Below, one piece after another: positions 3,201-64,000 of a stretch of DNA of 64,000 nt. The notes below the pieces were generated by a model. The model was not told the origin of the DNA. It was given only the letters and a program-made list of their open reading frames with translations, and ran no database searches. The stretch is from contig CAIIXF020000003.1 of the NCBI GenBank assembly GCA_903813345.2, positions 27,729,248 through 27,793,247 of the forward strand. Direction: 5' to 3'. The DNA comes from Owenia fusiformis (taxonomy: Eukaryota > Annelida > Polychaeta > Sabellida > Oweniidae). The stretch's first letter is position 1, and every line of letters starts with the position of its first letter. Both the position numbers and the translations under genes were made by a program.

Positions 3201-3339
3201 ATATTTTTATATTGTAAAACTTGACAATAATAAATCTAAGATATATCAGATATCGGTAGATAAGGGCGTATGTACTTAAAAGATATAACTACTTGATGTA
3301 ATGGACTTTTTCTATAAGATAAGTACTTATCGTTTTCAG
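223..3339. other. Upstream region of the Trk-like gene, no gene seen
   Basis: AT-rich sequence without a convincing exon or recognisable element; open frames are short and look random. At the right end, a pyrimidine-rich stretch ending in ttttcag (3338-3339 = AG) lies directly before the Trk start codon. This is a good splice acceptor, so a non-coding 5' exon probably lies somewhere in this stretch or further left. The promoter was not located. Confidence 0.4.
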
Positions 3340-3340
3340 T

Positions 3341-5881
3341 ATGCAATTACTCTACTCACTGATAATTGCTTTCGTTCTCTCTGGTCAAGTTGGAGCAGAA
3401 AACGACGTCTGTGACACTCAAATATGTGAGTGTAAGAAAACAAAAGAGAGATCGGAAACTAAAAATTTATTATCATGCACGAAAATGAACACATTGTCGT
3501 ACCTTCCACTATTATCCAGTGAGAAGAAAATGGAAAGCATTACTGACATAGATATACAGAACCAAGAAGCGTTTACCCATTTAGGTGCCGATTATTTGAA
3601 GTACTATGTCAACCTCAAAAGACTTACAATCATTAAAAGTGGACTTATCTACGTAATGCAGGATGTCTTCAAACGCAACTTACGTTTGGAGTATATAAAC
3701 TTGAGATTTAATCAGATTAGCTTATTTAGTTGGAAAACCGTGGAAGATTTGAGACTAAAAATGATGCAGAGACATCAGGAGAAATGGCTCCGTGTAGATC
3801 TGGATGGGAACCCTCTTGTATGCAATTGTAGCATAAAGTGGTACCAAAGAGAAGATCAAGGACTGTCCCTCTCAGAAGATGCAAGGTGTTTTGCAACAAA
3901 AAACATGACTATCAACAATGTCCGCGTCACCGATGTGGCAATCGACAATTGTGATGTCCCCGCTATTGCTGTAAAGCCGCCGAAACTTTCTGTGAACGAA
4001 AGTGCGGACGTCGAGTTTGTTTGTACGTCCGATTCAACGCCAAAGGGCCGTATTAGATGGAAAACAAACCGAATCGCATCAGAATTCCTTGTGATCGCGA
4101 ACGACACAAAAACAACACTCCGACTATATAACGTGACAACATTAGACAACCGTTATATAAAGTGTATGGCAGAAAATGAAGCTGGGACCAACGAGGGATC
4201 TGTTAGGCTTATTGTAAAATCCCCGCCAAGTATAGCTTATCTGAAGCATGACAAAAACGGTATTTTTACCCAGAATTGTATACTGTTTCAAATCATCGGC
4301 ACTCCTCGGCCCAAGCTCACTTTTCTCCACAATGGTGAAGTATTAATCAGAAATGACACTGTTGTAACAACTAGGAATTACTCGATTAAATCTATTGATT
4401 CTAAAATTAACAACCTCACTGCTTGTCTAGAAATTGATATGCCCTCCCATAGACACAATGGGCAATATACCCTGATCGCCAGAAACGACTACGGAATGGA
4501 TCGCATGTCGACGAGTGTCAAACTGATTGATATGCAAATTTTTGATCCGAATCGGCGACCTCGTCTGCCTTGCAATGCTCCCGGGTGTGATATAGCGTTT
4601 AGAGCCAGAGCAATTAATACTCCCACCCGTATGTCTATAACTGATATACCGGTGCCAGTAAGCAATCCATCGAGTCAACTGCAAAGTCCAAAGGATGAAA
4701 TCGTACAAATAGCCATCCCAGTTGCCCTGTGCGTTCTAGTTCTATTTTGTATTGTCGCAGCCATTATTGTCTTCCGTCATTTACGGCGTAAAAAGAACGG
4801 CAACAATAGGGCTAGAAGAGGCGACTTCTTTACATCCACCGACTCAAGGCGCCCATTGACATCAGGGGGACATGTGGCGGGTCACGGGGACGTAATATCT
4901 CAAGAAGATATGCCTCTCAATTCTGTCCACGTGGTAGAAAATCCAAACTACCTTAGAAAGGATAAACCGAAGAACAGCGCAGTTATCCATCAAATCAAGC
5001 GCGCACAAATAGAGTTCATACGTGAACTAGGCGAGGGTGCATTCGGTAGGGTTTACCTTGGGAAGTGCATGCATTTGCAAACAGGAGACACCACAACGAT
5101 GGTCGCTGTGAAAACTCTGAAAAACAGCTGTGACGTTGAAGATGTACGGACCGATTTTGACCGTGAAGCAGAACTTTTGACTAATCTCCAACACGATCAT
5201 ATTGTGGCGTTTTATGGAGTGTGTACCGAGTCTGATCCACTTATGATGGTCTTCGAATACATGGAAAACGGAGATCTAAATAACTACCTTCGATCACGTG
5301 GCCCCGACGCTATATTTTTATGTAAGAATTTGCCAAGTAACTTACCGAGTAAACAGCTGACAATCCCAGAATTGTTGCACATTGCTAATCAAATTGCCTC
5401 CGGAATGGAATATCTTGGTTCCCAACACTTCGTTCATCGAGATCTGGCTACCCGGAACTGTTTGGTAGGAGACCGCCTCGTTGTTAAAATTGGAGACTTC
5501 GGGATGTCAAGAGATGTTTACAGTACCGATTATTATAGGGTTGGTGGGCATACAATGTTGCCTGTGAGATGGATGCCTCCGGAGAGTGTTCTCTACCGAA
5601 AGTTTACAGTTGAATCAGATGTTTGGAGCTATGGGGTTGTATTATGGGAGATTTTTACTCTTGGGAAGCAGCCTTGGTATGAACTATCGAATCACGAAGT
5701 GATTCAACATATTCAGAATAAACTGCTCGAATGCCCTAGATTGTGCCCTGATGATGTGTACAGAATAATGCTTGGTTGTTGGAGGAAGCAGCCGCAGGAC
5801 CGCCTTACAATGACTGAGATCAGAAAAATGTTACAGTGCATTTCTGAGACGTTCCCGGAATATCTGGAGCTCATTGATTAG
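3341..5881 (+). CDS. Trk-like: Trk-like (neurotrophin-receptor type) receptor tyrosine kinase, single coding exon
   Basis: Predicted single-pass neuronal growth-factor receptor of 846 aa. Seen in order: signal peptide (1-19); cysteine cluster (24-46); one or two degenerate leucine-rich repeats (about 89-125); LRR C-cap with CNC at 161-163 and closing C204; Ig-like domain 1 (Cys228/Cys275, Trp240); Ig-like domain 2 (about 295-396); membrane helix (about 454-478); juxtamembrane NPNY (Tyr537), matching the Trk Shc-docking site; kinase with GEGAFGRV (564-571), Lys591, HRD (699-701), DFG (719-721), and the YxxxYY activation loop typical of Trk/insulin-receptor kinases (Tyr727, Tyr731, Tyr732). The last residues, PEYLELID (Tyr841), match the Trk PLC-gamma docking tail. 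All catalytic residues are present, so it looks active. The start follows a splice acceptor (AG 3338-3339). The whole coding region is uninterrupted, which is unusual because Trk genes normally have many introns. ROR/MuSK are less likely given the LRR-Ig layout and docking tyrosines. Confidence 0.93.
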   Translation: MQLLYSLIIAFVLSGQVGAENDVCDTQICECKKTKERSETKNLLSCTKMNTLSYLPLLSSEKKMESITDIDIQNQEAFTHLGADYLKYYVNLKRLTIIKSGLIYVMQDVFKRNLRLEYINLRFNQISLFSWKTVEDLRLKMMQRHQEKWLRVDLDGNPLVCNCSIKWYQREDQGLSLSEDARCFATKNMTINNVRVTDVAIDNCDVPAIAVKPPKLSVNESADVEFVCTSDSTPKGRIRWKTNRIASEFLVIANDTKTTLRLYNVTTLDNRYIKCMAENEAGTNEGSVRLIVKSPPSIAYLKHDKNGIFTQNCILFQIIGTPRPKLTFLHNGEVLIRNDTVVTTRNYSIKSIDSKINNLTACLEIDMPSHRHNGQYTLIARNDYGMDRMSTSVKLIDMQIFDPNRRPRLPCNAPGCDIAFRARAINTPTRMSITDIPVPVSNPSSQLQSPKDEIVQIAIPVALCVLVLFCIVAAIIVFRHLRRKKNGNNRARRGDFFTSTDSRRPLTSGGHVAGHGDVISQEDMPLNSVHVVENPNYLRKDKPKNSAVIHQIKRAQIEFIRELGEGAFGRVYLGKCMHLQTGDTTTMVAVKTLKNSCDVEDVRTDFDREAELLTNLQHDHIVAFYGVCTESDPLMMVFEYMENGDLNNYLRSRGPDAIFLCKNLPSNLPSKQLTIPELLHIANQIASGMEYLGSQHFVHRDLATRNCLVGDRLVVKIGDFGMSRDVYSTDYYRVGGHTMLPVRWMPPESVLYRKFTVESDVWSYGVVLWEIFTLGKQPWYELSNHEVIQHIQNKLLECPRLCPDDVYRIMLGCWRKQPQDRLTMTEIRKMLQCISETFPEYLELID

Positions 5882-12542: not shown

Positions 12543-35066
<22,524 letters not shown>

Positions 35067-37691: not shown

Positions 37692-37697
37692 TTTATT
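37692..37697 (-). terminator. Candidate polyadenylation signal of the cysteine-rich gene
   Basis: AATAAA on the minus strand, about 300 nt beyond the stop of the distal last exon. Other A/T-rich candidates are nearby. Confidence 0.35.
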
Positions 37698-37999: not shown

Positions 38000-40900
38000 T
38001 TAATGTACATCGTTATTGGCACAGCTCCAATGGTACCACGTGTCAACATTGCTCTTGTCTGGATCAGATCCCTTAACACACGTGCATATACCTCGTGGTG
38101 ATCGCATTGTTGCACCTTCTTTTACATGTTTGTTTTTAGTTGGATGCACACAACCTGTAAGTTAACAATATTTGGTTATTCAACGATTCAGGTAACGACA
38201 GACAAATTCACAGTCTCTCTAACGGTATCGTATGGTGCCGTTTTGGGCATGATACTACACAGTACCGTAAATATGGTAATGTAGACTAAAACTGCTCAGC
38301 ACAGTACCGTGAACACTGTGCAACGCAATACTCGAACAGTATCGCACGGTACCATACTCCAAATGTGACGTACGGTACAGTGATTTCGGACTGCGCATTG
38401 TGGATGAACCGAAACTCTTATCCTCTAAAAAGACAGAATTTGAGGCACCAACAGATTGTGATTGTTTGTGCTTAACAATCAATATATCTATCTATAGTCT
38501 TAAGGTTTCCCTTTTGGCCATTGCACTTACAAATATATGAGCTATTGATTTGGTTACACATGGAATGTGTAGAGAAAGTAAATGCAATGAAATAATCAGT
38601 TTTCTATTGTGCATTGACCCTTTGATCGAGGATAGTGGTACTTTGTTTGATGATTTCCAAGAGAATGCTTAGATGATTTCAAAGTTCTATTTTGATGAAA
38701 AAAATGCCAATGAACAAACCCTTTGGATGGCAAACGCTGCGGGGAAGTTGATGTGGAGTTGGTATATATACTCCAAAGTTATCCATTAAAAGGTTCGGCA
38801 TACTTCCTGGCATAACGTCCTTAGCTAGAAAACATTTACACGAATGTCTTTTTGTTGTCCAACTTTCACCAATTTCGTGTACTTTTGTAATAGTCTTTTT
38901 CATTCCATCGTCTCCAATCCGTTTCCTTTTGCTAAAACAGACTGGAAAAAAGTGAAGCCTAACATTATTGAAGTCAAATACTAGGGTTGTCCCACAAGTA
39001 ATGCACAATATGCTCTAACTTTATGATATTTTTCCATGACATTTTCAGTAAATGTTCCTTGGAGACATTTTGATTATTCTAAAAATGTTCATGTTGATTG
39101 ATAAAACTATATTGAGTTTGGGTAGGGTGGGCAGGTTATACAGTCACATCAAAAGAAATAAAAATTGAAAATATGAAATAATTAATCAACAAATACCATT
39201 TTGTGTAGCTATAAGAAGTATGCTCAAAAATACATTTTAAATAAGATACAAAATTTGAATGAGCAAATTCTAGATTTAATGGATGTATATTGTATATTTC
39301 ACATTTTCTCAAAATATTGCCCTTTGCATGTTATGTACTTTTGATACCTGTCAGGTCAAACACTCTTGGCAATTTCGTCCACTGTGACTTGTGGAGTTTT
39401 TGCCTCCCATGTTTGGAGTTGTCATTCAGGGTCAAATCATATCTTTTAAATCTCTTCTGCCACCTCATAATTATAGTTCTATCTGGTATATACTCCTTAT
39501 ATAGTTTCTTCATGGTAGCATAAGTTTTGCGTGGCTGTGAGTCATAGTGAAGTATGAAATTAGGCCACCAAACGCAAGGCTTTCTATTATCAGGTGGGAA
39601 TTGCAGCCATTTTTGCAATTTCGTGACTGTATTTGAATTCGTGACTGTTGAAATATGGTTTTATGACATCTCAGTGCTAAATGTCATTATTTGTACTTGG
39701 TTAACCTCATGCTGAATAAATCTAACAATTTCCCAAACATTTTGATCATTTAAAGGAAAGAAATATTAATAAAATAACACTTTAGATCTTTTCATAATTA
39801 GAAAAATTGGTACCTGCCCCGCCGACCCCTACCCCCATGTTGCTATAGCAACCATATTAAGACTTAATATTAATGTTTGATGGTGAAACTTCAGGATATA
39901 ATAGATAATACTATCGTTATATACACAAAATTTCGGCTGAATTGAAGAATATTAAAGAAAGTTAGAGAATATAGTGCATTACTTCTGGGACAACCCTCGT
40001 ATAGTTCCGTCTTTACAGATATGGTTCAGATTGAGATATTAGATTGTCACGAATATATGTGTATTGGTACTACACTGCCTGTTTCTCAAGAAGCCAGTAG
40101 CTACCCAGAGCAGAAGCAATGCGCATATAGTACAAAAGTAAATATAATGGCGTCATCGTTGCAAAATACATTGTACATGGACGTATATAACTGTTTTGGT
40201 ACGTACCCTTTGGACAATTTCTGACAGTGCTACATGATTTTTTAGCATCCAACCTAACAATACAACTGCTGTCTTTGTAAAAAGACAACGTATCCCTGTT
40301 TGTGGATTGGTTCCAGCATCTAAAATTACATTTCCATTGGTGAGGTATTTCTTATATATTAGGCGGGGCTTGACAGTACACAATACAATTGTGTTTAATA
40401 AACAATGCCAATATGTCTGTCATTAGACCACAATGTAGTGCTTAATGCCTTGGTCACATAGGCTCCGCCGGGCGATGATCGCCACTCATCGGCCGATTTT
40501 TAGACATCGTACGGGCGCCGGCAGAGTTTTATCGCGGAGATAAAAGTTGCCGATGTCTTGGCGATTTTTTCTCAACCAAACTCATCGGTACCTACCCGGC
40601 CGTGTCCCGCCCGATCATCGTACGATTATCTTACGGCGCCCGGTGGCATCGCAAGGTCATCTTTGGATTTTGCGTGCTGATTTGTTGGATAAATCTTAAT
40701 AATGATTACTTATAAAGTGATATAAAGGTTTTAAAAATAATGAGGTAAGGAATTATAATTACTACACACTGTCAGAGATTTTTATAAAACATAAATGGAA
40801 CGATTAAGCTTACTGTATATAAAACAATGGCACACATTTGAATGGCTGGGTGGGTGGGTTGATCTAGTCGTTCTTATATTGGCATTAATCGTGTATGTCT

Positions 40901-43900
40901 GTCATACACATTGAATAGAGTGTTACATTTTTATGCGTATATTCACTCATGCATATACCATTACAAATCATTTATTTTAAAAACCTTCGGAATGTTTTTG
41001 TGAGTACAGTAATTTCAAGGGTCACAATTTTACTACGATTAAAAATTACGTCTCAATTACAACGAAATATGCCAAAGGCTAATGATAGAGGGGATAAGGC
41101 CAATGGGCCATATATGAGGAAGGCCTTGGGAAGACAGGTGGAAAAAGACAATAACAATGCTACTGAGCTGGTGGATGATGAAGATTTAGATGTGTCTATA
41201 GGGAAGCGGGTACTCCACTTGAAACAGAAGAAATATGCCAATTTCTTTGAAGCCATATTTTTATGACCAAACTAATTCTCTTTACAAGAATAAATATGGA
41301 GAAATAGGGAATTTTGCTAATAGCATCGGATGGACAGGTAGTATTTTTTATATGAAAGATCTAAAAATGAATTAAGATCAGGGTGCACTTTGATGAAAAG
41401 ACCACGTCCAGTATGGCAAGTGATTTTAGACGGTCATATCTTTCACCATGAGTACCTTCTGGGCACAAATAGAGTGTTTTTATTAAAACAATATGTTTTC
41501 TTTCAATCGAAGTACCCATGATGATAAAAATATCAATCAAACAATTCGAAAAATGATGAATAGGGACCCCATGTCAACATTTTTTCTAAATATTGAACCT
41601 ATTTACTCAAAAGAGGATCTTCTTTTTCTGATTTTTATTGCATGAAAACATTATTATCCTGGAAGTCCTGTTTATCAAAGTATTTCGTTTTCAAATGTTG
41701 CATTCACGCCATGTGGAACAGCCATACTGGGTCATACAGGGATTAAGTATAAATCTAGAGGCCTGTAAATCGACCGATGTCCTGGCGGGTCCCGTACGGC
41801 CATCGGCCGATAGCCTTGCGATACCCGTGCGATGTCTTTCAGATTCAATTGATTGCGGGCGCCGTACGATGCCTGTACTAATGTGACCATACTCACGATT
41901 AGATCAAGACATCGGTGAAAAGTCACCGGCGCCCGGTCGATTTATAAATCGGCCGATGACTACTCATCGACCGGCGCCCGGCGGCTATGTGACCCAGGCA
42001 TAAATGAAACCCTATTCAGGAATCAAACTATAATATGATCAAATCGACATTCAAATCACTAATGATAAAAACATGGGCTTTCCATTAGAAGGGTATACAA
42101 CTCTGTGTAATAACATGAAACCTTCAAAATGAGCAATGCCGCGCCATGCTTCACTTTTATGGTAATATTTCAAAAAGTATTTGATAAATGTATATGTTTT
42201 AGTATTATTTTGAATAAAATTCAATTTTCAAAATGATTATAGCATAAACTATATTTAATCTCATGTAAAAGTAAAAAAAGACTAATAACAATAAGCGGTA
42301 TCAAGATGTTCCCTTCGAGTATTGCATTGTGGGTTATTATTCAAGAACACATTCCAATAAAAATATAATTTGTGGGAGAATGTTCACTTTCTGTATTGTC
42401 ATAATTATGATGAATTCCATTTTTTATTAAATTATCAACATGTATGAAGATAATCATGTTTTTATTTTACAGTTATTTCTTTAAATCATCCATAAAAAGG
42501 AAAAAATACGATTTTCTTGGAATGTTTACTTTCTCCAATTTTGAAAACCCAAAGGCATTGCTTATGTATGAAATATGGGAAGTGCCTACTACTACTACCC
42601 TTCTAGTTGAAAACCCATGATAAAAATTATAAAATTATACTGAAATATTACTTATTTCAAATCTCATTTGGTTTGTTAGAACCAAATGTATTCATGTCGA
42701 CCTTGAAAATATTTAAATATTGGTACAATTTTTAACCGCATATAAGTTTGCCATGTCATTTCATGTAGGTTAAAGGACAGACATGTTTAGTATTACACAT
42801 CTATTATTTTCCTTACATACCATGTTCTATCTGACACCTTTGTTTATTGAGCACTGTTTGTCCCATGCATTCGCCTACAAGTTATTTGTTTGAGCAAAAC
42901 ATTTACCTTGTAATGCATACAGGTGTTTACCTATCCATGAATAAAAGATATAACAGCTACTCTTATTATCTAGATATAATGTTAAATTCTTATTTATTGT
43001 TATAGAGTTAATAGTCTGCCTTTCCATGAATCATTTATGATACTTGGGATGTACTATGGTTTGCACTTTGTAAGTATGGAGATTACTTTAACAGAAGGGG
43101 ATATTAATTTGCCATCATTTAACAAATGCTTGGTAGAAAAGGCATCCGGTTTAGAATTAAAAAGGCAATTTGTAACGAGTTAAGAGAAACCTGTCAATTA
43201 AAATAATAATTGTTTTCCAATATTAATGCTTACAGCATTCTTCGGGCTTATGTCCGATTAATAATGATGTAATGGATTTTTCAGTTCTAATGAATTTGAA
43301 CGAACATGTCTTAATCGTTAAATCTGGTAACTTTCACCTTTAATCAGATTTCTCAATTCCTCCTAAGATAATAAATAAGATTCGACATAAAAACATATTG
43401 AGACAGTACTGAATACTTTCCAAGTAAACGATAGACAATCTTAACAATTCTACAGTTTCATTGCTGGCCATGGTAAGAGTTTAAGGATAAATGTAGCTAA
43501 TTGTATTACTAGAAGCATTACATTCTATGACTGCAAGTCTGATTGGTTAGCTCAAAAGATGATTGATTTTTTAAACTATTGAAAAGTATATTGAACTTAC
43601 AGCCTTCAGGGTTTAGTGAGGCACACCGTGCCAATCGACCATTTAATGTAACATTTATTTCATTCAATTGATTTAATTACAAATGACACAATGACAAATA
43701 CATATCAAATATTTACGAGATAATACAACACCAACAAATTTACTTGGTCAGTTTTTGGATCTTCAAAGTACAGTTTCTTTGTACTTTATGTTTCCATTTG
43801 CATTTTCATCAACATATTTCATAAGTGTGACTAATTTGAGCACACTTAAAGGTGACATAAGAAAATACTCAATACAGAGCACTGTGAATCCTAAAAATGA

Positions 43901-44046
43901 CGAAAAAATAGCAGTTTAGTGGACACTTACCGTAAAATATCCTCATCGTTGACATATACTTGTTTATGTAATCTCTTTAGATCTTTATTTTTAGCACAGG
44001 TTGTGTCCAATACAAGGAATGTCAGAAATATTATTGCTAAATCCAT
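38000..44046 (-). CDS. Small secreted cysteine-rich protein, three coding exons (distal last exon)
   Basis: Family not firmly recognised; a VWC-like single-domain protein is my best guess. Minus-strand coding exons: 44046-43931 (116 nt), 40319-40207 (113 nt), 38154-38000 (155 nt). Sum 384 nt, 127 aa. Splice sites: ttttctttcag before the first coding exon (acceptor AG at 44054-44053, 6 nt before ATG), donor gtaagtg, acceptor aattttag, donor gtacgt, acceptor cttacag. Phases 2 and 1 join without a stop. Protein: signal peptide MDLAIIFLTFLVLDTTCA (1-18), a short basic segment (KNKDLKRLHK), then 8 cysteines: four in exon 2 (CWNQ, SSC, KSC, RNC) and four in exon 3 (GCV, GICTC, WSC). Even cysteine number fits disulphides in a secreted protein. 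Introns carry a mariner-like element and a 1.55-kb DNA transposon. No single ORF reveals it. Transcripts are needed for the 5' end. Confidence 0.8.
38200..38400. repeat. Short palindrome-rich patch (gtacggta words)
   Basis: Several near-palindromic cggtacc/acagtaccgt words in about 200 bp, just upstream of the distal last exon in the intron. Possibly a decayed MITE. Confidence 0.3.
38679..38941 (-). CDS. Alternative last exon of the cysteine-rich gene (homologous to 38000-38154)
   Basis: On the minus strand, acceptor cttttttccag (AG at 38943-38942) opens a frame in the same phase (1) as the distal last exon. It runs 263 nt to TGA (38681-38679). Joined to exons 1-2 it gives 163 aa. Its protein starts CFSKRKRIG and reads KVHEIGESWTTKRHSCKC; the distal exon reads KHVKEGATMRSPRGICTC. 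In both, the Gly lies ten residues before CxC, with an Arg at +7, and each exon supplies four cysteines. The exons are therefore duplicated, probably mutually exclusive, 3' exons. It could instead be a cassette using the gtatgc donor after MPG, but that would leave an odd number of cysteines. Confidence 0.62.
38981..39999 (-). mobile_element. Mariner-like element with transposase remnant (1,019 bp)
   Basis: Left ctagggttgtcccacaagta and right tacttctgggacaaccctcg are terminal inverted repeats, with TA on both sides (38979-38980 and 40000-40001). A helix-turn-helix fragment of mariner transposase lies on the minus strand. The element sits in the last intron of the cysteine-rich gene, 40 bp before the proximal last exon. 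Confidence 0.82.
39331..39618 (-). pseudogene. Mariner transposase N-terminal helix-turn-helix fragment
   Basis: A 95-residue frame containing YATMKKLYKEYIPD...MRWQKRFKR...SKHGRQK. This matches the second helix-turn-helix of mariner/Mos1-type transposases (y.tv.rw..rF..gd..l.d..rsGRp). The catalytic DDD domain is absent. The same segment, more decayed, is on the plus strand at about 59990-60200. Confidence 0.65.
40446..42000. mobile_element. 1.55-kb GC-capped DNA transposon, TAA-flanked (PIF/Harbinger-like)
   Basis: Left TGCCTTGGTCACATAGGCTC and right complement of TGCCTGGGTCACATAGCCGC. TAA lies on each side, fitting the 3-bp TWA duplication of PIF/Harbinger (inference). Both ends are rich in ggcgccggc, gccgatga and cgtacg words; the interior is AT-rich and holds a 65-codon frame. 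It sits in the first coding intron of the cysteine-rich gene. Confidence 0.7.
41069..41266 (+). CDS. Unidentified 65-aa frame inside the 1.55-kb transposon
   Basis: Starts MPKANDRGDKANGPYMRKAL and is charged throughout (ELVDDEDLDVSIGKR...LKQKKYANFFEAIF). The composition looks coding, in contrast to the flanking AT-rich DNA. Not recognised. It may be a remnant of a transposon accessory or transposase protein, or host sequence captured by the element. Confidence 0.35.
   Translation: MPKANDRGDKANGPYMRKALGRQVEKDNNNATELVDDEDLDVSIGKRVLHLKQKKYANFFEAIFL
42001..43930. other. Intron of the cysteine-rich gene, no further exon found
   Basis: Searched on the minus strand for extra cysteine-coding exons with correct phase. 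One donor-like site (gtaagt near 43600) lacks an in-frame acceptor. Otherwise AT-rich. Confidence 0.4.
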
Positions 44047-44052
44047 AATAAA

Positions 44053-51917: not shown

Positions 51918-54834
51918 TTTTTGTTTGTTTGTTTGTATCTTTATTTCCTCCAATTCTGAAGAGTACAATTTCTTATAAAATAAAATAAATTAGCAAAAAG
52001 TTATATACATTATATACATATAAGGAACATAATCAGTAATCACATCACATCCAGAGCACCCCCTATTAAACGGCCGGACGCCAGGCTACCGCGTTGACCC
52101 GTAACCGCAACAGGCCCAATGCTCTGGAGTTATTTTGACTATTTGAGATACGCAAATTACATTCTGCTTTCACATGTATACATTTTATGAACATTCTTCG
52201 CAATTAATATGTACTGATCAGGTGCCAATTGTTCATTTTCACCAAATATTAGTCTTAGAATTTGCTCATTACTTTGATTCAATATCAGCGAGTGATTTTT
52301 AACTATATCTAGAATGATTTTTCGTTCGGCTGAGAAATATTTACATTTTAACATGAAATGTTCCAAGGTCTCATCCTCTTCACCACAAGCTTTACATAGT
52401 CGCCCGTTATGTCTGTCTTTCATGTCGCCCCATTTGCCTGTGATAGCACATAGATTACTCCCTCCAGTTAGTAGGATCATCATTGTCTTACATATGCGAA
52501 TATATTGGCATTCGCGAAATGCAATTTTCCACCACACTATTGGTGTGCCAAAGCGTATTACATTCCTATATAGGGAAGCGTTGTGATTGAACATACACTG
52601 TATTTTCCACTGCCACATTGCATATTCTCTTGTATTATCTGACACCATCTTCTTCCATTCGCATTTACTTGGTACCATTCCTGTATCTATCATATCATAT
52701 ATTTTGTGCTGAATGCCTAGACGTTCAGCTACTCTCATGCAATCACCAATAGGGGACACTAAAGCTAGATCACGTGTTCTGTACGCTATGATTCTCATTA
52801 TCGCGATCATCTTATATACATTGTTCATTGGTAGAGATAACAATTGCCACACTAACATGATTTTGTCTACTACGATCTTTGACGTTACGTCTCTCCAACC
52901 AAGTTGTTGTATGGTTGCCTGGTTGCTGGTCGTGATAGGAAGCCCTTGTATCTTCTTTGCTATTCCCCTGTGTGCTGTCTCTAGCCTGTCATAGTCAGTA
53001 TCTTTAAGAGGCAAAAGACTCATTCCATACGTCATAGTGGGGAAACATATTGACCAGCAAATCTTTGACGCTGTTAGAGGATTTGTTGGATTGTTATTGC
53101 TGGCTGTAGTTCCTAAATAGGCAATCATTGCTCGTCTTCCTTTCGAGATACGTGTGTCCATGTATTCTTTTACTGAATTGCTATTTGTAAGTGGCAGCCC
53201 AACATGATCTATTGAATTCTCGATGGGAATAATGTGATTCCCTAATTTCAGAATTGGTTTTGGGGGGTTTCTCTCTCTACTAAACACAACGGCCTTACAT
53301 TTCTTTGGGTGAAACTGAAATCTCCATTTGCAGCTATAATCAAAAACTTTACGCAGTAGAACCTGCATTGTATTACCATGATATGCTAATAAGTTCATGT
53401 CATCAGAAAACGTGGGGCAGCTACATACAACATTTCCTATAGAACATCCAGTCATACTATCACATATCTCATTTAATAGTTCATTGGTGTACCTTGCGTA
53501 TAATTCCATTGACCAAACACCACCTTGGTGCACACCCTGCTCCACAGGAAACAGATCTGAAATATTTGCATTTTCACTTAGAAACCGAGATATTGCTTGG
53601 GGAATATTTAAATCCTCTTTAACTGCTTTAAACATTGAGTCTATGTTCACATTCAATTTAATAGCACATTTATATCCATCATAACAATTTCTTAGCATTC
53701 TCCATAGTTTGCCGTTTATTCCCTGTTTATACATTTTATGATACAACCCAATATGCCAAACGCCATCAAAAGCTTTTTTAATGTCTAATGACGTCACAAT
53801 GACATTATTACCGTTTTCTAAACCTGTTGCTATTGCTTCTCTTGTAACAAGAGATGTGTGAAGACTAGAACATTTGGCCTTGTTAACACCTTGCATGTTT
53901 GAAACCTCTTCTGTTTGTGCACATAATTGGCTTCTTGACATCATAATTCTCTCGAACATTTTCATGTACGTGGTCATCAATGTAATGCCACGATGGTCAT
54001 CTTTTGATAAGATGTCCTTGTTACCACCCTTGAAGAGAGGTATGAGCAGTCCTAGCTTAAAACTTTCTGGGACATATTCAGTGCGTACCATCTCATTGTA
54101 CAGAAGTGTTAGAGCTTGGATTAATAAATCTCCCCCATTCTTAATGTGCTCCGGTGTAATTTGATCCCACCCGGGAGCTTTCCCATTTTTTTACTTGGAT
54201 GTGATTAGATGTACTTCATTGCACGTTAATGCCTCTGTGAAAGCTCCGTCGTCATTGTTAAAACTGTCTCGTTTCATTTCATCTACTTCATTATTAATCA
54301 TCTTTTCAAATTCGCTGTCATATGGTGTATCTTTCTTGAGGGACACTAGCTTCTCAAAATAGGACTTCCATTCCATTAGTACTTCATCGGGCTCAGTGAG
54401 CACTAGTCCTTCATCATTTCGTATTGCGATGGATTTACACAAATTACCCTTGCGTTGTTTGATCAAGTACCAAAACTTGTTTAAGGATAAATCTGCAGCG
54501 TCATCAATTTCCTTTTGACACTTAATTTCAAAATCATATTGAGCCCTACGGATTGCCTTTCTAAACATTCTTTTTGCGTCCTTGTAAGCCTTCCAATATG
54601 CATTTTCTGGCTCTCTAGATTTTCCATAGAACTTCCATCTATTCCACGTCATTTTCTTTTGTTTCAAGCATTCTTTTACAGTCTCCGTCCAATATGGTTT
54701 TAAATGTTTGTTGAACCTTGATTTTGGTAAGGACTGGGAGGTTACATCATTAATTATATCGGACAATTCATTAAAAAATAGTTCAATGTCCATGTTTGAC
54801 ATACTGCCACTTTTATTCATATCTCGTATCTCGT
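51918..54834 (-). mobile_element. LINE B, 5'-truncated non-LTR retrotransposon nested in LINE A
   Basis: Full extent of the insertion on the minus strand. The 3' end is at 51918, with AATAAAG then a short (CAAA)n/A-rich tail; the 5' end is truncated at 54834. It is flanked by ATGC on the top strand (51914-51917 and 54835-54838), a target-site duplication. Removing it restores a continuous LINE A reading frame. No endonuclease domain is included. Confidence 0.85.
52157..54820 (-). pseudogene. LINE B reverse-transcriptase ORF, interrupted by one in-frame stop
   Basis: Two frames, 54820-54191 and 54190-52157, are in the same phase and separated only by TAA (54193-54191), at a point where related proteins carry a Leu before KNGKAPGWDQI. 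A TTA-to-TAA change is the simplest cause. Seen: pre-RT segment (KPYWTE...RRAQYDFE...KFWYLIKQRKG), KNGKAPGWD, LIPLFKGGNK, SLDIKKAFDGVWH (first catalytic Asp), EQGVHQGGVWS, TFSDDM (FSDD instead of the usual F/YADD, both Asp kept), a thumb region, and a C-terminal zinc knuckle (CKACGEEDETLEHFMLKC). More than 850 codons are otherwise open, so the insertion is young. The N-terminal endonuclease is missing. A jockey/CR1-group LINE is likely; clade not resolved. Confidence 0.85.
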
Positions 54835-54838
54835 ATGC

Positions 54839-55445
54839 TGTTACTGATCTGATCAGGACCCGTGACTTTGTTTGACTGGATAAAATATTGACAATGTTTT
54901 CAGTTCTTGGGTCTATGTGGATGTTACATAAATCATCATTACGATGAAAATTTTTAATAAAATGAGATAAAAATAAATTAGCCGTGTCATGGCCTTTAAC
55001 AATATATTTCCCATGTTGGTCAAAAAGTTATGGTATTTTTGATTTGCCGAGAAGTTTGGATATTATGGCCCAGTATGACATACTGCCATATTTAAAAGTT
55101 GATAATTTCTTTCGCATGTTTCAGTCAAATGCATCTTCAGCCTCATTTATTGCTTGATTCACGAGGGTATATTGTTCATTATATTTGTTTAAGTATGTGA
55201 AATTGTGAGATTTTCGATATTTGGAATTGTTTATTCCTTTTGTTAATCATAAGCTTTTTACATTAACGATAGTATTAGGAATTCGGTCCAAAAATTGTCA
55301 AAAGCTTGTTGCTAAAATTTTCAACAAGGATTTCGATGTTGTTTGAAGGTTCAATGAGGTCATCAAATCGGGCTCTCCTGGTGGCAAGAGATAGGTCCCT
55401 GCGGTCCCTCGGGTTATACACAGATTTTCCTTGGGATAAACTCTG
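54839..55445 (-). pseudogene. LINE A fragment, upstream half (pre-RT region)
   Basis: Minus strand reads debris such as ATRRARFDDLIEPSNNIEIL, MSYWAIISKLLGKSKIP, HGKYIVKGHDTANLFLSHF and, one frame over, KVTGPDQISNS at the junction. This is the linker and pre-RT region expected just before the fragment at 51270-51917. Two in-frame stops and at least one frameshift. Confidence 0.75.
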
Positions 55446-62100: not shown

Positions 62101-63829
62101 GTATTTGTGGCAGTAATATACCTGGAAATGAAAATACAAGCAAAATTAAATATTATGTTTGAAAAGTTGTGACATAAACAAACCTGTCCCGCCTTTTTGT
62201 TTAATCGGTTACTACAGTTACCATGAGTCTGACCAATCAAATAGGACATTTTGAAATTTGCAGAATCCATGTGAAAAGGTTTATCTTGCACCTTGTACAA
62301 ATTATATTAGATTGGTGCAATATCAAGAAAGTTACAGTTTCTTTCATCTTATTTATTGTTCACCCTGTACACGTCCTGGTTGAGTTATAAAGCTGGAATT
62401 TCACAATGGCGAGGGGTGTCAATTTACTTCTTATTTGGATATTCTGCAGAGGTTAGTATGTTTATGGAAAAAATCCTGTATCATTCTATATCGGATAATA
62501 AGCATGAGTGAATGAACAACCCCATCCTATTCACATAATCCACGAAGATAAAGACTGAGTGCATTATCAGAACGGGTTGGTAGTCATGATTCTAGAATAA
62601 TTATGCGCATAGCTGATATCCCAATGTTTGGAGAATACTTATTAACTGAAGGCAGGTAACTTTAATTCACAACAGTGGTGCTCAGTTCCATTAATAACAT
62701 GTAATAATTAATGTACGGAAATAAGCGATGTGGATATCATGTGCGCACGGCCGGTGTGGAAATTAGCGGTCATTTTTGAATTTGGATTCGTGATATTTCA
62801 CAAACTAAGGCATGTTGGGTAGTCAATTATGTTTCATATTGAAAGTTGAAATGTTTCTGTGTGGTATTATACAACATGGGCAATATCAAACGAAAATGTG
62901 CTACCTCTGAACAAGTGGTGCGGGTATACGTTAAGTAACGATATCTGCAAATAGGTCATCTTGATCACAAATACTGACTGAAGGCTGTAAACGGTGTACA
63001 ATTTTGAGATGATAATACACATTTTAAGATATCTCTTTGAGTACATTTCAAATCAATTCTCAATATAAAGCGTTCACGAAAAGGTATTCGAATTGTCTAA
63101 GTGCGATGTTACAGAATTACGTTAAGATATACTGGTCCTTAACAATTCCTTTGGGGACAAGATATATAATCAATAATATTTTTTCTTATTTATACACCGA
63201 CACGTGCCAATGAATGTGACATGAATAAATATTTCCATTCTAAATTATCGATAAATGTTGTCATCTACAGCTGCACTACAGCTGCAATTTTTGGTAACTG
63301 AACAACTACAACACAACTGTTAACAATTTAAGTTAATAATAAAGTTTTCCTTGGTGGTCTAACATCGGACGAGATGATAACCCGTTTTGAGCATTGAGTA
63401 TTAGAGGTAAACTATGGATACTTGTAACCGTAAGTCGGCATGTATTCAACAGTAAAGATACAGTTAAGTTTAAGTTTAAAATATTTTATTTCTGTGTCAC
63501 AGGTTGAAAAACTACATTTCAATAACATATTATAATAAATACTTTTTTGAAATATGGAAATGTTTCGATATGCTAAAGATAAATTATCACCATTTTCTTG
63601 TATATAGGGGTTAATGTTGTCTCTAGCTCAGACGAGAGGACAGTGGTGCCTCTGGTAAGCACAGCAAATGGTAAGGTACAAGGAACAATGAATCATGCTG
63701 TAGACAGTAGCAGACCTGTATATGCATTCTATAGTATACCATATGCAGAGCCACCAACAGGAAGCAACAGGTTTCAACCACCCATACCAGCTAAACCATG
63801 GACTGGTACTAAGGATGCTACAAAAATAC
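58218..63829 (+). CDS. Carboxylesterase gene 2, partial (first exons and exon 2)
   Basis: Paralogue of the gene at 12543-35066. Three usable first exons of 46 nt (58218-58263, 61881-61926, 62406-62451) each encode a signal peptide (MARGVNLLLIWIFCRG or MARGVKLLLIWILCRG) and end with donor gttagta in phase 1. Exon 2 is 63608-63829 (222 nt, same length and phase as in gene 1), from acceptor tatatag to donor gtaagg. It encodes VSTANGKVQG, YSIPYAEPPTGSNRFQPP and AKPWTGTKDATKI, about three quarters identical to gene 1 by eye. The catalytic exons lie beyond the window. Only one first exon can be used per transcript, since each starts with ATG and has no acceptor. Confidence 0.85.
59121..60205 (+). 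mobile_element. Mariner-like element, 3'-truncated, with nested insertion
   Basis: Starts cgagggttgtcccagaagta after TA (59119-59120) and matches the reverse of 38981-39999, including the gcaacatgggggtaggggt block and the decayed transposase helix-turn-helix. The right terminal repeat is missing. Interrupted at 59259-59734. The uninterrupted site is seen at about 63175. Confidence 0.75.
59259..59734. mobile_element. 476-bp element nested in the mariner-like copy
   Basis: Absent from the sister mariner copy at 38981-39999, so its borders are visible by comparison. Ends ttatcacatg and cgtgtgataa. The right third is a strong hairpin: atcacacgtttcagcttatg...ggaaatattcca pairs with tggaatatttcc...catgctgaaacgtgtgat. 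No coding sequence; superfamily unknown. Confidence 0.65.
60279..60498. repeat. Degenerate CTAC/CTTAC simple repeat
   Basis: About 220 bp of imperfect ctac, ctcagctact and cttactcag words between the two duplication units. Confidence 0.8.
60848..61842 (+). mobile_element. TA-flanked MITE upstream of exon 1b
   Basis: Same family as 57402-58179 (cagggtgtccaattaataag ... ttgttcaccctg), TA at 60846-60847 and 61843-61844. Longer than the first copy. It again ends 37 bp before a first-exon ATG. Confidence 0.75.
61521..62570 (+). repeat. 525-bp tandem duplication carrying esterase first exons 1b and 1c
   Basis: 61521-62045 and 62046-62570 are nearly identical. Each contains the MITE right end, 37 bp of leader, exon 1 and the start of intron 1. 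The matching minus-strand frames at 61434-61775 and 61956-62300 are shadows of this duplication, not genes. Confidence 0.9.
63176..63607. other. End of intron 1 of esterase gene 2
   Basis: AT-rich intronic sequence ending in the exon 2 acceptor (AG 63606-63607). Nothing else recognised. Confidence 0.45.
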
Positions 63830-64000
63830 GTAAGGCTTTAAATTCCAATGCCAAAATCCCTAATTTACACATTTCACTTAATTGTTTTTGGGGTCCTTTT
63901 GGACACCAGAGCACATTCTTTGCAATAATTATATCTGAAATAATTATTCTCTCTACAGGAAAGTCCATCTAATCCTCAATTAATTCATTTTCTTTCTGAT

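Follow-up and report, generated by a model that had tools for sequence, protein, structure and literature searches.

Particles in oyster plasma have been reported from dominin, a protein with a superoxide dismutase (SOD) domain, and segon, a protein without known relatives (PMC6530089). Segon is described there as a secreted plasma protein that lacks a SOD domain and has a calculated mass of 30,484 Da. A further protein, Oe-EcSOD, is said to join a segon-like N-terminal part to a dominin-like SOD part behind it, the comparison being marked "analysis not shown" (PMC6530089). In this study, we focused on a gene of the annelid Owenia fusiformis that seems to belong to a comparable arrangement. 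It lies on the minus strand of a 64,000-nucleotide stretch of genomic DNA (the window; contig CAIIXF020000003.1, positions 27,729,248 to 27,793,247) and is here called W. We consider it probable that W, with four exons, encodes the module region of a family of extracellular SODs as a secreted protein by itself, its SOD domain perhaps having been lost.

A four-exon gene and its ten-locus family

W is made up of four exons (Table 1), and we regard it as a real gene for a small, cysteine-rich protein, probably of the secreted type. The preliminary description of this locus had joined three exons of 116, 113 and 155 nt into 127 codons. Their lengths, GT-AG borders and phases (2 and 1) are exact; as a complete set, however, they fall short, and with the overlooked exon, exon 3 of the present model, the product grows from 127 to 201 amino acids (aa). 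Because exon 3 is a multiple of three (222 nt, phase 1/1), the frame stays intact without it and its omission was hidden in the three-exon model. The full product has 13 cysteines. Of these, 12 follow the presumed signal peptide and are split 4 + 4 + 4 over exons 2, 3 and 4, hereafter modules 1, 2 and 3. The eight cysteines once counted in the 127-aa product are correct for the part after the signal peptide, but that product has nine in all.

The borders of exon 3 (cag/TCTG...AAAGG/gtttgt, phase 1/1) include a pyrimidine-rich acceptor, cttttttccag. The intron between exons 2 and 4 contains 45 open phase-1/1 AG..GT segments of at least 90 nt, many of them nested. The maximum number of cysteines in such a segment is four, reached in two segments that share the exon 3 donor. 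An alternative acceptor at 38980 (261 nt, in frame, four cysteines) was rejected, its tract having 6 pyrimidines in 12 positions as against 11 in 12 for the acceptor at 38941. Exon 1 is the sole signal-peptide-like exon with a phase-2 donor that the scan returned in the 9 kb upstream; its hydrophobic N-terminus (best mean Kyte-Doolittle value 3.19 over 11 residues) is followed by TCA-K. The predicted mature protein has 183 residues and 20.9 kDa, is basic (isoelectric point, pI, 9.41) with a lysine/arginine-rich stretch in exon 3, and would be expected to form up to six disulfides.

Searching the same genome with the 201-aa protein produced eight hits at E<=10. Four were the exons of W, and three were relatives of exon 4 located on the contig of W (E=3.8e-5, 0.001 and 0.151); the eighth was a weak match of the N-terminal part on contig C2 (E=0.262). 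The flanks of the three exon 4 relatives showed all three module exons, arranged 2-3-4, and these loci are here called A1, A2 and B. Searches with them led to six further loci (C, D, E1, E2, F and G). With W, the family numbers at least ten loci, since the genome search scores only the best candidates. Module ends were set by eye, at the first cysteine and at the last one or a few residues past it. Intact copies were found for 28 of the 30 possible module exons, and all 28 have exactly four cysteines; exon 2 of D was not found and exon 3 of E1 is damaged. The preliminary description had asked for homologues in related genomes with the same cysteine spacing. When such homologues were sought within the genome of W itself, the cysteine order and the CxC motif proved common to the ten loci, whereas the lengths between cysteines vary. 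Intron phases are 2, 1 and 1 in W, A1, A2 and B and, by eye, also in C, F and G; the statement covers these seven loci. W itself shows the features by which the three-module, 12-cysteine family is defined here, namely three module exons with four cysteines each and phases 2, 1 and 1. Its identity with A1, A2 and B is 30-36%. In a tree of eight of the ten loci (D and E1 were omitted as incomplete), W grouped with B (UFBoot 86) and C with E2 (100), and the other inner nodes received 33, 37 and 41.

The module exons were also recovered by profiles from which W had been left out. Hidden Markov models (HMMs) built without W were run against the 2,416 six-frame open reading frames (ORFs) of at least 18 aa in the window, together with reversed-ORF decoys. 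Profiles from six loci (A1, A2, B, F, G and C) ranked exons 2, 3 and 4 of W first (E values in Table 1), and profiles from three loci found them at E=4.5e-4, 2.8e-8 and 1.3e-15; the best other real ORF of the window scored 0.16 and the best reversed decoy 0.17. This test is partly circular, as A1, A2 and B were found from W and the remaining six loci from A1, A2 and B. Exons 2 to 4, exon 3 included, are taken as real. The hidden multi-exon gene with a probably secreted, cysteine-rich product that had been announced before is supported.

Two observations made along the way concern single copies. At E1 (L018, contig C152, about 4160-4288) the module 2 exon is damaged, and that of its neighbour E2 is intact; contig C152, which is small, might have arisen as a recent duplicate of the C/D loci or be a haplotig of them. 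A match to exon 4 of B at 24007-24090 on the plus strand of the window (E=0.001) has no Pfam match and no module exon beside it, and was taken as chance.

SOD exons of the relatives and the end of the third module

The scan with the Sod_Cu model (PF00080) gave 39 exon matches in the genome, some of which adjoin the modules of A1, A2, C, D, E1 and E2. Neither the window nor the surroundings of B, F and G gave a match, in a genome search that may miss weak ones, and tblastn with the SOD exon of A1 returned nothing in the window at E<=1. The first SOD exon scores 47.9 bits in A2, 57.6 in C and 25.9 in A1 (cut-off 28.9). In five of the six SOD-bearing loci (A1, A2, C, D and E2), the third module exon ends in a phase-1 donor for which SOD offers an acceptor in phase 1. 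Joined in this way, the SOD exons start alike: YAHC in A1, FAIC in A2, YAKC in C and YARC in both D and E2. In the damaged copy, E1, no matching acceptor was found in frame. One SOD domain was seen in each SOD-bearing member, with the cysteine modules in front. In most of the members found, the module set is accordingly the N-terminal portion of a protein of an extracellular Cu/Zn-SOD family. By eye, and at positions that we assume to be those of the ligands, the copper-site histidines of the first SOD exon are kept in A2, C and D, and some are lost in A1. A separate feature of A2 (L011, 3140-4833, minus strand) is a long tandem repeat between module 3 and the SOD exon; all three minus-strand frames run open through this repeat, whole or in long pieces.

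F and G have no SOD match but keep the donor, and they possess a further exon with the pattern CCGC.RM.IDP. Its frame stands after the three modules, in the place of SOD, at about 6762 on the plus strand of L021 (F) and about 2900 on the minus strand of L022 (G). Neither the CCGC nor the RM.IDP part of this C-terminal module is matched in the window. DP.T.V, the pattern at its loosest, has a single match there, on the strand opposite to exon 4, and this was taken as chance.

The end of module 3 sets W and B apart from the other members. After the last cysteine of this module, the relatives continue into a donor: TGTGCAA/GTAAGT in A2, TGTGTTC/GTGAGT in A1 and TGTGAAA/GTAAGT in D. At the same site, W reads TGTGCCAATAACGATGTACATTAA (with TGTGCCAATAACG... 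in the place of the phase-1 donor), with no GT there, and a stop follows. B reads TGTCCTCTGAGAAC... and is likewise without a donor. W and B, its closest relative, both end inside the third module exon. Because they stop within module 3 exactly where the others have the donor, the simplest reading is that the W/B line lost it. The stand-alone form would then have arisen through the loss of one splice donor, with read-through into the stop.

As to what such a protein might do, the modules could serve the SOD-bearing relatives as a binding or assembly arm that attaches to a partner or surface and places SOD there. W would supply the arm but not the enzyme, and its product might act in plasma or matrix as a partner or competitor of the SOD-bearing relatives; the stand-alone protein is perhaps a secreted binding or assembly protein. 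That it works in this way, like segon beside dominin in oyster plasma, is a guess, and we would not count on it. A generalization of this idea, which we would not expect to hold either, is that the sets of three module exons, two of them FN1/VWC-like, form an undescribed animal family of exchangeable extracellular targeting arms that, within one genome, may be joined to Cu/Zn-SOD, joined to the CCGC module or left alone; here, donor loss would have turned an enzyme into its own adaptor or competitor.

Nature of the modules and alternative explanations

Modules 2 and 3 look like repeats of one another (hhalign gave a probability of 82% for 23 columns about the G...CxC core), and module 1 did not align to them. 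The G-x-x-W...C-x-C core recalls the FN1 and VWC domains. A search of Pfam gave nothing at E<=10 for either the 201-aa or the 127-aa product, and no cut-off for the modules was reached in any of the eight of ten loci scanned. The best match to fibronectin type I (fn1, PF00039) occurred in member F only (E=0.035, 14.7 bits against a cut-off of 27), where Fn1_2 also appeared at E=0.25. VWC (PF00093) came below its cut-off in one of four members (E=0.6) and in none of four other members scanned. SVWC, whose Pfam number we take to be PF15430, was not among the Pfam-A matches listed, and the presence of this model in the Pfam copy used is unconfirmed. Unrelated families score similarly in other members, such as MarR (0.25) and CATRA-N (0.2).

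Structure models made from the single sequences of exons 3 and 4, with no alignment, are rich in strands. For exon 3, one of five models reached a pLDDT of 75.5 and the other four 38-46; for exon 4, the value was 80.5, with all five models at 76 or above. Foldseek with these models returned 61 and 119 matches at E<=10, none of them at E<=0.001. The vWF C4 domain was at rank 13 for exon 3, with a non-significant E of 5.6. A likeness to HER-1 (phmmer, E=0.0085 against 1szh) was set aside as chance, for a four-member profile missed 1szh and had a dehydratase as its best match (E=0.04).

It is unlikely, in our view, that the protein is a true, though divergent, member of the VWC or fibronectin type I proteins. 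The G..W......CxC core, the scores of fn1 and Fn1_2 in member F, the VWC match in one of four members and the rank of the vWF C4 domain all point that way; yet no curated cut-off was reached in eight loci, W has no Pfam family at E<=10, the unrelated MarR and CATRA-N score as well in other members, and the Foldseek matches, from alignment-free models, never came to E<=0.001. The VWC likeness suggested in the preliminary description is accordingly weak, and its hormone-like reading found no support. A hormone- or immune-like peptide of 127 aa as the main product, with exon 3 skipped, is very improbable. Skipping would keep the frame, and the gtttgt donor of exon 3 is not strong; it would, however, remove an exon that has a counterpart in the same place in nine of nine other loci (damaged in E1), with the same phase where checked, and that was recovered by a profile built without W. 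The 127-residue model is therefore no longer the best one. We also find it implausible that W is a decaying, non-functional paralog that has lost its enzyme domain. Its missing donor, the lack of a SOD domain found and the damaged module 2 exon of another copy, E1, would suit decay, but all 12 cysteines, the open exons and the GT-AG borders have survived a divergence that leaves 30-36% identity with A1, A2 and B, which would hardly be expected of neutral decay. A more serious candidate, though not one we would expect to hold, is that the stand-alone three-module secreted protein is ancestral and that phase-1 exon shuffling later added SOD exons in other copies. The joins are in phase 1, no SOD match lies near four of the ten loci, and F and G carry a different C-terminal exon, so that the C-terminal end seems to be exchanged among members. 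Against this, W and B end in module 3 where the others have a donor, which is more natural as read-through after donor loss.

Several points weigh against the reading that we favour for W as well. The absence of SOD near W is not proof, since the search may miss weak matches, and F and G show that absence of SOD does not always mean loss of the donor. The direction may also be the reverse, with the SOD-less form as the ancestral one. In A1, A2 and E2 there are two or more candidate acceptors, the choice among them having been made by the start of the protein. The tree is small, with few columns from eight of the ten loci and low inner support apart from C+E2. The gene model is a prediction from genomic sequence, and the donor of exon 3 is not strong. 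Exon 1, and with it secretion, rests on one gene, the first exons of the relatives not having been matched: among seven relatives scanned, a convincing first exon was absent; B gave two doubtful candidates, E1 one and the other five (A1, A2, C, E2 and F) none (for F, C and E1, less than 9 kb of upstream sequence was covered). Module pI ranges from 4.75 to 9.41 across the ten loci (D and E1 incomplete), so that charge is not a family trait. In the literature, the Oe-EcSOD comparison was published without its analysis (PMC6530089). With these points included, we still judge it probable that W represents the module part of a family of extracellular SODs, standing alone.

Surroundings of the gene and comparison with known systems

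Table 1. Exons of W and other features in the window (positions are those of the window)
Feature	Position	Strand	Description and basis
Exon 1	43931..44046	-	ATG, presumed signal peptide, short linker; donor phase 2 (ACG/gtaagt); local features only
Exon 2 (module 1)	40207..40319	-	Four Cys (C..Y..C..C..CP); phases 2/1; HMM without W, E=2.7e-6
Exon 3 (module 2)	38720..38941	-	Four Cys (C...G.W......CxC...C); phases 1/1, 222 nt; HMM without W, E=1.9e-7
Exon 4 (module 3)	38000..38154	-	Four Cys (GC.HP...CxC.KG.DP...C), then stop; HMM without W, E=8.1e-14
Nearest AATAAA, possible poly(A) signal	37692..37697	-	About 300 nt past the stop; motif only
Six bases from an AG acceptor-like run (tttctttcag) to the ATG	44047..44052	-	An intron of the 5' untranslated region or a trans-splice site may end here; sequence only
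First carboxylesterase, frames	12807-13055, 33123-33626, 34140-34403	+	Pfam; likely C-terminal stretch at about 34.9 kb, by eye
Second carboxylesterase	begins 63583, frame 63583-63972	+	Pfam COesterase

W sits between two plus-strand carboxylesterase genes (COesterase, Pfam), the first of which seems to end before W; no sign of a functional link between W and these flanking genes was seen. Elsewhere in the window, a single 852-codon stop-to-stop frame (3323-5881, plus strand) has a leucine-rich repeat (below cut-off), an Ig domain and a tyrosine kinase in Pfam and resembles a Trk-like receptor. An intronless receptor kinase seems unusual, and it may be a retrocopy. Two long adjacent frames at 52157-55027 on the minus strand look by eye like a LINE-type reverse transcriptase. 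In intron 1 of W, two GC-rich stretches (about 41780-42000 and 40460-40660) have common words by eye and are possibly a short mobile element.

The present reading would link a small secreted protein, otherwise an orphan, with the extracellular SODs and make W a test case for how the accessory region of an enzyme becomes a separate gene. The 12-cysteine module set scores above no Pfam cut-off among the members that were scanned, and a separate model for it may be worthwhile. It has the short format and the G..W before CxC of the VWC, SVWC and fibronectin type I modules, and differs from these in its four cysteines per module and in scores below the Pfam cut-offs.

In the titles and abstract openings returned from the open-licence PMC literature, and in excerpts of PMC13017621, PMC9118643 and PMC6530089, a SOD with such an N-terminal region is not described. 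The CSRP proteins also belong to the SOD superfamily and are proteins of animals, either secreted or at the surface (PMC13017621); they consist of tandem SOD repeats, whereas the SOD-bearing relatives of W have cysteine modules first and then one SOD domain. A 700-aa open frame with three Sod_Cu matches in the same genome (G000, C5:18744860-18746197, plus strand) looks like a one-exon repeat SOD of the CSRP type. Cavortin/dominin and other mollusc extracellular Cu/Zn-SODs share the extracellular SOD domain with the SOD-bearing relatives, and none was found in W; the excerpted accounts of cavortin/dominin mention no three-module, 12-cysteine N-terminal part (PMC9118643, PMC6530089). The closest published parallel found is that of segon and Oe-EcSOD, the one a SOD-less protein and the other described as having a segon-like part in front of its SOD part (PMC6530089). 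Segon, at 30,484 Da, is larger than W at 20.9 kDa. W may also bear on the question of segon and dominin in the oyster, namely why a plasma protein with a SOD domain has a SOD-less companion.

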